The notes below the pieces were generated by a model, which saw only the letters and a list, made by a program, of their open reading frames with translations, searched no databases and had not been told where the DNA came from. Below are positions 5,908-13,187 of a stretch of DNA of 14,086 nucleotides, piece by piece. The DNA lies in assembly GCA_031288635.1 (NCBI GenBank), contig JAITQZ010000073.1:1-14086 (forward strand), written 5' to 3'. Position 1 is the first letter of the stretch, and the number at the start of each line of letters is the position of its first letter. Source of the DNA: Candidatus Peribacteria bacterium. GTDB taxonomy: Bacteria; Patescibacteria; JAEDAM01; Absconditabacterales; Absconditicoccaceae. Made by a program: the position numbers and the translations under genes.

Positions 5908-5961
5908 ACCTAGTATTTTTATCAGCACAGAAAAAAAGTGCAAAAAAAAGTGCAAAAAAAT

Positions 5962-5989
5962 TTGCATTATTTTTTTTTCTGAGTATACT
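5962..5989 (+). promoter_or_regulatory. Promoter of the large non-coding RNA
   Basis: TTGCAT (5962-5967) and TATACT (5984-5989) are separated by 16 bases, mostly T. The predicted start at 5996-5997 coincides with the first base of a 7-bp stem (GTCATCA, pairing with TGATGAC at 6028-6034). The same arrangement, TTGTAT-16-TATACT, precedes the membrane gene at 9120. An A-rich direct repeat (AAGTGCAAAAAAA, twice) lies just upstream and could be an UP-like or regulatory element. Confidence 0.6.
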
Positions 5990-6084
5990 AATATCGTCAT
6001 CAAGAAAGAGAGCAAAAATATCCTCCCTGATGACAGATGAAAAATCTTCCAACAAATTGTTCCCAAAAAATTGTTCAAGTATAT

Positions 6085-6755
6085 TGGAAGAAGTGGTCTT
6101 TAACAAGATATATTGGAAAATCCATTTATCATTGGTAGTACTCACGTACTATCCTCACTTGTTTCTCTGACTTGTTCAGTGAGATAAAGGAGAAATGTAT
6201 GGAGGAAACGTATCGAGATGTCTAGATTCTTCTGTGTTGTGTTGTTAGCATTCTACAAAATTAGGAGTTGCAACACCTACCATTCAAGTCCTTATCAGCT
6301 TATCACTGGTGAGAAAAATCATCTAGCGGTCTTGCCTCTCTATCAGAAAGAGTATTTGAAAGCATCAATCTTTCAGAGTTCTAACCTCTTTGACCGTAGC
6401 AAATGTGCAAATCATTTCTGCGAGTTTCCAGACTTCAGAGAAATCTGATTTCGTTAGGAGTGGGTAGAGAAAAGCTTGTAAAAAAGCTAAATCGCAAGTG
6501 AAAGAGACGCTTGCATTTGTAAGAAACGACTACATCAAGTACATACATAAGATGATAAAATTATCGACCGACTAGAGCGATAAGGTTTCATCAACTGGAT
6601 TCCGCAGTTAATCTTCATAGAGTGTTTTGTATTCTCGCTATCAAAAGTAGTAGGAACTTTTCCCTCAAATAGCTTCTTATGGGTAACTATAAGTAAGATA
6701 GAGATTAAAATGTTCATACAAACCTTTCAGGTTAGCCTGTGTTTGTGTGAGATAT
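6085..6755 (+). repeat. Unit 1 of the large RNA
   Basis: Starts with TGGAAGAAGTGGTCTTTAAC and the hairpin TGGA-AAA-TCCA (6114-6124). A bulged hairpin, GGTAGTAC-TCAC-GTACTATCC (6135-6153), follows. GGAGGAAACGTATCGAGATG (6201-6220) has a close copy in unit 2. TAGGAACT...CTCAAATAG lies at about 6651-6672. The closing hairpin is ACAAAC...GTTTGT around CAGG-TTAG-CCTG (6728-6739). It is the longest unit, with about 200 extra bases in its middle. Confidence 0.6.
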
Positions 6756-6817
6756 ATCTTGTGAAATCTCTTCTTTCCATATCCTTGGACAGTTCATCAC
6801 TGAATTGTTTGAGGTAC

Positions 6818-7250
6818 AGGAAGAGTGGTCTTTGAAAGAACGTATGGGTAATCCCTTTGTACTTAGTACTATCACTACAAGAGTTGTTTTGCTTCCCTCC
6901 CGAGGAATGTATCAAACAATTCCGATAGTATTATCACTGGTTCGCAAGAATACAGGATATACTACCAGAGGAAACGAATCGAAATACTTTCATCAGTATC
7001 TCGACTGTTAGTAAGAGCTACAAACTATTTCATCGTGCAATTCACTTTGCAAGTTGGGGTGGAAAACAGGATACCACAATATATCTGTAAAGAAAGTACT
7101 GATTTCTTAATTTCAAAAGGATTAGGAACTGTATCTCTCAAATAGTAACTTCGCTTTTGCACTGTTTACTAGAGATAGATTGTTTACGAAACCTCAGGTT
7201 AGCCTGCCGTTTCAGGGTTGTTAGAGTGTACCTTTATCGGTTGCTCTAAT
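6818..7250 (+). repeat. Unit 2 of the large RNA
   Basis: Starts with AGGAAGAGTGGTCTTTGA and the hairpin GGG-TAAT-CCC (6846-6855). AGAGGAAACGAATCGAAATA (6967-6986) matches unit 1. TAGGAACTGTATCTCTCAAA with TAG follows at about 7123-7145. The closing hairpin is GAAAC...GTTTC around CAGG-TTAG-CCTG (7195-7206), then a stem TTAGAG/CTCTAA (7221-7249). Confidence 0.6.
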
Positions 7251-7321
7251 AGAATGTAACATACTTCTTTTATTCACCTTCCTACATCGCCTGGTTGCTT
7301 CAAAAGAGTAGCTTGGCTATG

Positions 7322-7790
7322 CAGGAAGTCAGGTCTTTATAACAACTATGGTTCACATCCGTGTATCATTGGTATATAGTATCCCAAAAGCTTATCTACT
7401 GTTATTCCTCCCAAGAATTTCATTGAGATTTGCCTGCTATATGTCATCACTTGTCTCACTTTATTGTATCCTATTTCTTAACCGAGTAGTATTAGTAATG
7501 TTGTAGATAAAGAATTGCTTATCTCTATGGATAACTTCATCGTTATGCACATATAAGTAGGATGATACATCAGCTTTATTTTATCTTTCTTATTAACTGC
7601 TCTAAAAAGCTGTCTAATCTGATTGCTCTGAAATACAAGTTGCTCAAAACAGGATGTCGTATACTATCTTTCGAGAGGTATGCTGTTCTTTATCATAAAA
7701 TGGTTGAGAACTCATACATCAAAATTAGCTCGTCTAATAAGATAGGATATTCAGAAGGTCTATTTAGGTTCGCCTGATTCCTTCAGGGGT
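7322..7790 (+). repeat. Unit 3 of the large RNA
   Basis: Starts with CAGGAAGTCAGGTCTTTATA and the hairpin ATGG-n7-CCGT. It shares TATCATTGGTA...GTATCC with unit 1. GAGAACTCATACATCAAAAT followed by TAG at about 7706-7727 corresponds to the GAACT...TCAAATAG motif. The closing hairpin is GAAGG...CCTTC (7754-7784) around TTAGG-TTCG-CCTGA. It is the most diverged copy; its TTAG loop is replaced by TTCG. Confidence 0.5.
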
Positions 7791-7848
7791 AAATGCTTTG
7801 AAACTCCACCGTTTCATTCATCTACAGTTTGACATAGATGCTATATTC

Positions 7849-7897
7849 CTTCTTCCTTGAGAAGAAGCTGGTCATTATTGATTGGCTTTTTTCTTTT
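7849..7897 (+). terminator. Terminator of the large RNA, with a competing upstream hairpin
   Basis: AGCTGGTC (7866-7873) pairs with GATTGGCT (7880-7887) through Watson-Crick and G-U pairs around ATTATT, and the stem can extend by GAAGA with the T-rich 3' side. A long T-tract follows. The bases GAAGAAG (7861-7867) can instead pair perfectly with CTTCTTC (7849-7855) around CTTGA. The two structures exclude each other, as in an attenuator. The nucleotidyltransferase gene starts about 90 bases downstream. Confidence 0.65.
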
Positions 7898-7982
7898 TTT
7901 TTTCATTTTCTCCTTGCAACTGCTCCGCGAAACCCTACCATAACAATATCAAACACCCTTTATCTCTTTACCACCACCCTCA

Positions 7983-12506: not shown

Positions 12507-13187
12507 TTATGCAATAATTCCCTCAATATACCTCAACAACTCATCTCTCCCTTTTCACGAAACATTAGAAATCTGAAAAAAATCGGGGAGGGGAGTCTTC
12601 ATTTTCTTCACCGCCTGCTGAAACTCTTTCAAATTTTTACTCCTTTCTTTCTGAGTCCCTTTATCCATCTTCGTAAAGACCAAAGCAAAATCCACCTGTT
12701 CTTCCACGAGACTTGCTATCATTTCCAAATCAATCTTCTGCGGTGGAATACTTCCATCTATCAACAAAAACAGCTTCTTCAAAGTCTTCCTCTGCTTCAA
12801 AAAGTGTTGCGTCATATCCAGCCAGTTTTTTTTCTCCTTATCCGAGGCCTTCGCATATCCATATCACGGTAAATCAACTATTTGCCACACCCCCTTTCAT
12901 ACTGTGCCCCATCCCGCAATACTGCGGGACGGGGAAGGGGGGCAGGGGAGATTTTGTTTTCAAGAAGCTTTCTCTTTCATATACTCAACTTCAAAAAAAT
13001 TAAAAAGTCTGGTTTTTCCTGGAGTAACAGAGGTTTTCGCAAGATTGTTTCTTTGCGTCAACACATTGATAAGTGATGATTTCCCTACATTCGACCTACC
13101 AAAAAATGCAAATTCAGGATAAAGAGGGGAGGGACATTGCTGCAGACTCGCAGCACTTTTTATAAATTGAGCTGAAGTAATACGCAT
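12507..13187 (-). CDS. engB: Ribosome biogenesis GTPase EngB (YihA/YsxC) with an in-frame insertion
   Basis: EngB is a small GTPase needed for large ribosomal subunit assembly. Reading four TGA codons as Gly joins the frame into 226 residues. G1 is GRSNVGKS (30-37), G2 lies in SVTPGKT (53-59), G3 is DLPGYG (105-110, with Gly108 a TGA codon), G4 is TKMD (172-175), and G5 lies near SNVSGKG (207-213). In typical EngB, the strand NFFEV (63-67) is followed after only a few residues by the strand leading to DLPGYG. Here about 30 residues intervene (about 71-100), rich in Pro, Ser and Gly ([15 protein letters not shown]), encoded by the GC-rich palindromic repeat at 12906-12956. The insertion lies between two strands, at a surface turn next to switch II. 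The ATG at 13187 begins [12 protein letters not shown], the normal family start. The rest of the protein is intact, so it is likely functional. Confidence 0.93.
12906..12956. repeat. GC-rich palindromic repeat inside engB
   Basis: CCCCATCCCGCA and TGCGGGACGGGG form a long imperfect palindrome (12907-12934), followed by a G-rich tail ending GATTTT. Core and tail match the copy at 2781-2821. Because engB is on the minus strand, this copy is translated in the opposite orientation from the methylase copy, yet neither reading has a TAA or TAG. Confidence 0.85.

Follow-up and report, generated by a model that had tools for sequence, protein, structure and literature searches.

In the window, by which we mean the whole 14,086-nucleotide stretch of Candidatus Peribacteria bacterium DNA analysed here, a region of about 1.9 kb separates two groups of protein genes. 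Upstream lie ftsZ and the genes of a DNA methylase, a pseudouridine synthase, a MORN protein and a DUF192 protein, and downstream those of a nucleotidyltransferase, a protein with a weak, below-cut-off EamA match, and dnaB. Code 25, in which TGA encodes glycine, reads through the window's genes. The nucleotidyltransferase is 79% identical to its homologue in L001, from a MAG titled Peribacteria, and 67% identical to the one in L002, from a MAG titled Absconditabacteria. Between the two groups, at 5996-7892, the longest stop-to-stop frame under code 25 spans 147 amino acids, against 109 +/- 23 in shuffled sequence (15 of 200 shuffles as long); where the window's frames have longer matches in the relatives G001, G002 and G039, those matches are interrupted by stops, and a 142-aa ORF on the minus strand has no Pfam match; the earlier claim that the region has no coding capacity even under this code therefore holds. 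An Rfam scan of the window returned no family up to E = 1. The OLE, ROOL and GOLLD models match neither the window (E = 1) nor the relatives' loci L020-L023 and L067 (0.1), where the sole Rfam match up to 0.1 is a tRNA that lies about 3.5 kb away from the RNA in L023, and no Rfam match to a group II intron, rRNA, RNase P or tmRNA was found in the window or the relatives' loci, in line with the preliminary description, which had recognised no rRNA, tmRNA, RNase P or intron signature. By comparative sequence evidence, 5996-7892 is thus confirmed as a non-coding, covariation-supported RNA locus without an Rfam relative.

Elsewhere in the window, the palindrome CCGCAGTAYTGCRGG occurs at 236-250, 2784-2798 and 12914-12928, giving six strand matches at up to two mismatches where 0.01 would be expected, and two of the copies lie within predicted protein genes (the methylase and a GTPase), resembling in-frame inserted palindromic elements. 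The DNA methylase gene holds an in-frame 48-nt tandem repeat of 4.2 copies (2262-2465). The features of the RNA locus are as follows.

5931..5989, + strand: promoter block, with A-tract/GTGC repeats at 5931-5960, a -35 element TTTGCA at 5961-5966 and a -10 element TATACT at 5984-5989
5996-7892, + strand: non-coding RNA locus of three tandem units, one full and two shortened, the third strongly diverged
5996..6034, + strand: 5' leader stem-loop, beginning at the predicted transcription start
6044..6093, + strand: leader hairpin arms before unit 1 (8 bp, -10.4 kcal/mol; 6 of 300 shuffles equal), weak here
6084..6770, + strand: unit 1, full-length (z = 21-41 against the five other long units)
6095..6103, + strand: boxA-like motif of unit 1, GGTCTTTAA, from the 16S comparison
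6178..6335, + strand: arm A of unit 1, model R1 (32 pairs, 17 changed on both sides; 0 of 500 shuffles)
6336..6471, + strand: arm B of unit 1, model R2 (37 pairs, 21 changed on both sides; 0 of 500 shuffles)
6591..6743, + strand: 3' domain of unit 1, the R3 region, which includes the CAGGTTAGCCTG hairpin
6768..6826, + strand: junction hairpin between units 1 and 2 (17 pairs and an internal loop, -17.1 kcal/mol; 2 of 300 shuffles equal)
6819..7274, + strand: unit 2, shortened, orthologous to unit 1 of G001 (z = 25; trees)
6827..6835, + strand: boxA-like motif of unit 2, GGTCTTTGA, from the sequence
7063..7223, + strand: 3' domain of unit 2, its sequence used in building R3
7275..7331, + strand: junction hairpin between units 2 and 3 (12 interrupted pairs, -16.4 kcal/mol; 4 of 300 shuffles equal)
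7322..7847, + strand: unit 3, shortened and diverged, orthologous to unit 2 of G001 (z = 20; tree support 100/100)
7332..7340, + strand: boxA-like motif of unit 3, GGTCTTTAT, from the sequence
7646..7795, + strand: 3' domain of unit 3, its sequence used in building R3
7848..7892, + strand: 3' hairpin and intrinsic terminator (GCTGGTCATTATTGATTGGC and T6), looking like a unit start folded to a hairpin

A search with 5990-7900 found a match in the genomes of both L001 and L002, outside the syntenic position, and the downstream-nucleotidyltransferase loci in L001 and L002, compared together, held no RNA-like match. Across the 353 genomes of G001's class, blastn at E <= 0.001 gave matches in five, of which those in G001, G002, G039 and G043 were judged genuine and that in G319, which falls inside a coding frame, was put down to chance, so that relatives are present in 4 of the 353. 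G001 and G002 each carry two tandem units, and G039 carries two unlinked single-unit genes (G039a and G039b). The copy in G043 is represented by its ends only, at contig edges, the 3' end having been found by blastn and the 5' end by the promoter pattern described below. The conservation in related genomes that the preliminary description had called for is seen by both BLASTN and covariance searches in G001, G002 and G039 and, by BLASTN and the promoter pattern, in the G043 ends. Covariance model R2 at E <= 0.02 matched three of the 353 genomes (G001, G002 and G039) and, among 379 genomes sampled from the phylum, G001 together with one match put down to chance (G477, E = 0.0097). Model R3 found G001, G002 and G039 among the 353, plus one match within a long frame. 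Model R1 at E <= 0.1 matched 15 of the 353, three of which were taken as real, and gave eight matches, two of them real, in a family sample of 40 genomes; its matches up to E = 0.1 also include two weak ones in contig C14 of G002 and one in C5 of G039. Candidates were dropped where they overlapped the start of a small lipoprotein-like frame (G043 C1), overlapped reading frames (G018, G013 and G043 C12), lay within a long frame (G045) or fell in a locus that by eye resembles an mfd gene (G072).

Compared with the relatives by blastn, loci L030-L044 gave only short matches, except L042 and L043, which are known copies. Exact-pattern scans of genome contigs and viral contigs gave no match, nor did blastn against phages and plasmids. 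Because first-look filters limit sensitivity, the absence of the RNA from other genomes is provisional. The genes flanking the loci differ: among the flanks read, DUF192-like and pseudouridine-synthase-like genes lie upstream in the window and G002 only.

The promoter reads TTTGCA-17-TATACT (5961-5989) and is preceded by 12-nt A-tract repeats. A bare consensus scan of both strands yields four matches against 7.5 expected in shuffles, which is chance level; however, the block at 5931-6007 is 90% identical over 77 nt to the sequence upstream of the G001 relative, and a pattern derived from the promoter block recurs where the copies of G002, G039 and G043 begin. At up to two mismatches this pattern has 22 matches in G001, G002, G039 and G043, against none for the reversed pattern. 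Seven of these stand at this RNA: one in G001, three in tandem in G002, two in G039 and one in G043, the last belonging to the copy that runs off a contig end. One more lies at a second putative RNA gene in G001 (below) and 14 lie elsewhere, some of them preceding protein starts as judged by eye, so the promoter type is common to other genes as well. An rRNA-type promoter was considered and not adopted: a promoter copy lies at a G002 contig end (L059), but no rRNA was seen there. In G002 (L021 8216-8461), three tandem copies of the promoter block stand before the RNA, with a leader hairpin after each of the first two.

The leader stem, in which GUCAUCA (5996-6002) pairs with UGAUGAC (6028-6034), is found also in G001 and G043, is shorter in G039a and G039b, and has changed pairs in G002. 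At the other end, the terminator at 7861-7892 has counterparts in G001 and, weakly, in G002; the 7-bp hairpin that precedes it does not reach significance when treated as a bare duplex (100 of 300 shuffles equal). The promoter, the stem at the predicted 5' end and the terminator that had been proposed from the sequence are thus all present, the first owing its credit to the conserved block and the second recurring in relatives. The second putative non-coding RNA gene in G001, of about 0.6 kb by eye (L067, contig C23, around record position 6849, minus strand), has in common with the family a promoter block, a boxA-like start and a similar terminator; the arms are absent (no R1-R3 match).

Nine units were aligned. 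Six are long (unit 1 of the window, unit 1 of G001, units 1 and 2 of G002, G039a and G039b), with stretches of 707-842 nt in alignment A3, and three are short (units 2 and 3 of the window and unit 2 of G001). G002 is accordingly composed of two long units, G001 of a long and a short unit, and the window of a long unit and two short ones. Unit 2 of the window is without the central arms that its G001 orthologue keeps. Direct alignment within the window gives z = 6.7-7.1 for units 1 and 2 and 6.1-6.7 for units 2 and 3; for units 1 and 3 it gives 1.1-1.8, which is not significant, so the homology of these two depends on unit 2 and G001. Model R1, built without unit 2 of the window, matches that unit at E = 6.7e-5. 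From one boxA-like start to the next the distance is 732 and then 505 nt, and about 535 nt separate the last of them from the terminator. The preliminary description had spoken of three diverged copies of about 400-670 nt; the triplication stands, and the sizes have to be replaced by these spacings.

Three unrooted unit trees were built, one of six units and two of nine. All three separate unit 1 of the window and G039a from the rest (support 94/94, 97/95 and 97/98). Unit 2 of the window pairs with unit 1 of G001 (100/100 for whole units, 87/83 for the 3' domain), and unit 3 of the window with unit 2 of G001 (100/100 and 99.7/100). From these trees, the window RNA looks like a G039a-type unit placed ahead of a G001-type pair. 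The two G002 units pair at 98.7/98 in the six-unit tree and at 32/61 and 24/36 in the nine-unit trees; G002 likely duplicated its units separately, and because the nine-unit trees support the pair poorly, this stays short of established. The natural unit is 0.5-0.9 kb long and occurs by itself in G039, so that the 1.9 kb of the window is one species' tandem version. A structured RNA with internal repetition, as first described, is therefore upheld, and the idea of 1.9 kb as one giant fold is given up.

The structure rests on the six long units of four genomes, with alignment and structure derived from the same sequences. The energy of their alignment is -235 kcal/mol, against a mean of -93 and a best of -109 in 20 column shuffles, which corresponds to z = -20 on the RNA strand and -18 on the other strand; the latter is expected, because helices are complementary. 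Scored in twelve 200-column segments, the RNA strand gives z values between -12.9 and -1.2, the last of which is not significant. With three sequences, the RNA alignment gives z = -1.3 to -9.6 in seven windows and a coding control, the nucleotidyltransferase, gives -1.7 to +0.3 in eight. The pair counts of arms A and B exceed those of all 500 shuffles on all five measures, and the 3' domain has 16 pairs across the nine units, seven of them changed on both sides. Each of the six long units was held out once and tested for the pairs that the remaining five predict; 78-88% of these formed, where shuffling the letters gives control means of 40-42% and sliding the partners 35-48%. For unit 1 of the window, 164 of 195 pairs form (84%; shuffled 40%), and 36 pairs differ from the majority on both sides yet still pair, against three that differ without pairing. 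The possibility that the sequence is accidental or decayed, or that it codes for an unrecognised protein, has the chance-level bare promoter scan in its favour and is negligible in view of the covariation, the conservation and the broken frames; provided that the alignment is right, the hold-out result speaks against it.

Transferred to the short units, the structure forms 72 of 79 pairs in unit 2 of the window, 49 of 88 in unit 3, which is within the shuffle range, and 42 of 67 in unit 2 of G001; in the latter two it is the 3' hairpins that are secure. Divergence of the third copy has gone so far that the family structure lends no support to its central part. A search for pseudoknots and for tertiary or unit-to-unit pairings found none at the strict setting, where the null is also zero. 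The apical loops are A-rich and conserved in alignment A3.

The ends of the units are where the single and the tandem forms can be compared. In the single-unit RNAs G039a and G039b the ends are complementary and are predicted to form helices of 22 and 24 bp (-29 and -36 kcal/mol). The strands of this end helix are instead predicted, in G001 and G002, to form hairpins of 15-20 bp before the units (-21 to -29), although the first unit of G001 has no such arm in front. None of 300 shuffles equals any of these five helices and hairpins. The hairpins of the window, where the leader arms at 6044..6093 are counted as the equivalent of the junction hairpins, are weaker than those of the relatives, at -10 to -17 kcal/mol with 2 to 6 of 300 shuffles equal.

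A variant of GGTCTTTAA opens all nine aligned units. We take the motif to be boxA, from the E. coli sequence and from its position before 16S rRNA: window positions 6087-6105 are identical in 18 of 19 nt to a stretch of G001 that lies 35-53 nt before the 16S rRNA, and boxA-like variants also precede 16S in G002 and G039. Outside this boxA-like stretch, blastn against the 16S loci found no clear similarity. A boxA pattern has two exact matches in four genomes, one at this RNA in G001 and the other before the 16S of G002, and eight more at one mismatch, including one before the 16S of G001; it misses several units, whose motifs vary, and it is not enriched genome-wide, because the reversed control gives 32 matches against 10 in the four genomes. 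It is thus the placement of the motif that suggests boxA. NusB is encoded in all four relatives' genomes. In G001, G002 and G039, the strands flanking 16S form a long predicted helix after the motif, an arrangement that, as modelled, is similar in kind to the motif and long-range helix of the units. In this set of rRNA loci (L071, L070 and L072; 16S by Rfam, 5S and 23S by eye), the order in G002 seems unusual, 23S-5S-16S, and in G039 and G001 a 5S seemingly stands directly before 16S. NusB and NusE at boxA are needed for rRNA expression and have been proposed to prevent Rho termination (PMC4807359, PMC5725501).

Comparison of the sequences establishes conservation, covariation, lost reading frames and genes of one, two or three units, and likewise boxA-like unit starts, complementary ends in the single-unit RNAs and the same strands between tandem units. 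As an explanation of these observations, we think it somewhat probable that the locus specifies three covarying tandem modules in one boxA-antiterminated untranslated RNA, acting as a covalently fused multi-subunit RNA scaffold. Transcription would run from the conserved promoter through to the terminator as one untranslated RNA; NusB/S10 would load at boxA and allow RNA polymerase to cross the long untranslated RNA without Rho stopping it; and the units may then pack together as subunits, by analogy with the separate molecules of OLE, ROOL and GOLLD. Each of the four genomes with intact loci (the window, G001, G002 and G039) carries two or more units, whether linked or not, and for this reason a fused multi-subunit assembly is favoured over independent action of the units. 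We go further only tentatively, with rather more doubt than belief, in suggesting that this is a new natural class of RNA in which the subunits of an oligomer have been fused into one chain and the end helix of the single RNA has become a linker hairpin.

The main rival holds that the transcript is a tandem precursor from which cleavage in the junction hairpins, probably by RNase III, would free unit RNAs that act alone or together. RNase III cuts rRNA operon transcripts, and the predicted 15-24 bp helices of G001, G002 and G039 resemble its substrates; a boxA with long flanking helices is also the 16S rRNA arrangement in the three genomes examined, and the G039 units sit in separate genes. 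However, the window hairpins are short or interrupted, and the divergent unit lengths fit positions in one chain better than interchangeable products, and we consider this account unlikely, if a serious contender. Less probable again is a monomer that serves as an RNA-protein scaffold or as a regulatory RNA, in the manner of raiA or the OLE RNP, and in which the units would be repeated sites for a protein or the ribosome. The repeated domains and the conserved A-rich apical loops would suit such a role, and large ornate RNAs also bind proteins (PMC12286853), but no gene was seen to adjoin all the loci (from the ORF lists, and Pfam on the window proteins). A selfish or mobile RNA element, a broken intron or an rRNA fragment would account for the differing genomic positions and the patchy presence; it is very improbable, given the empty Rfam and phage and plasmid searches, the single locus per genome (two in G039) and, for an rRNA fragment, a likeness to the 16S loci confined to the boxA-like stretch.

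If the fused multi-subunit reading is true, the RNA is a counterpart of protein subunit fusion and, as a single molecule, exceeds OLE, ROOL and GOLLD in size. The module occurring alone, doubled and tripled offers natural one-, two- and three-unit constructs for testing the evolution of RNA quaternary structure. CPR bacteria gain a covariation-supported RNA class without an Rfam relative, and the boxA-like starts suggest that rRNA-type antitermination may serve another very long untranslated RNA. A literature search of partial coverage found no description of such an RNA in the lineage or of tandem large RNAs, and a term search of PMC11109978 found no mention of Absconditabacteria, Patescibacteria or tandem. 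As an RNA class it would be new; its broad kind, the large ornate non-coding RNA, has precedents.

Among those precedents, cryo-EM shows OLE, ROOL and GOLLD as protein-free homo-oligomers and raiA as a monomer (PMC12286853), and the length of OLE is put at about 600 nt (PMC9723947). Like these three oligomeric classes, the window RNA is large, elaborate, covariation-supported and non-coding, with its own predicted promoter and terminator. Its unit of 0.5-0.9 kb falls within the range of OLE, ROOL and GOLLD lengths. Unlike them, it lacks an Rfam match, comes with one, two or three units per gene and a boxA-like motif at each, and is so far confined to the window and 4 of the 353 genomes of G001's class. 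GOLLD is frequently, though not by strict definition, associated with phages or tRNAs; here there is no tRNA in the window, no similar phage record, and the exact-pattern scans of viral contigs were empty. raiA and HEARO resemble the window RNA as structured bacterial RNAs, at a few hundred nucleotides, but the window RNA is without an Rfam match and its units are tandem, and no HEARO-like nuclease is among the scanned window proteins. The leader of an rRNA operon shares the boxA-like motif, near-identical to the G001 pre-16S stretch and with variants in G002 and G039, and the long-range helix that follows; it differs in that the RNA downstream is here not rRNA and the motif is repeated at every unit. 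By this comparison, the best reading is that the window RNA is analogous, but unrelated, to OLE, ROOL and GOLLD.
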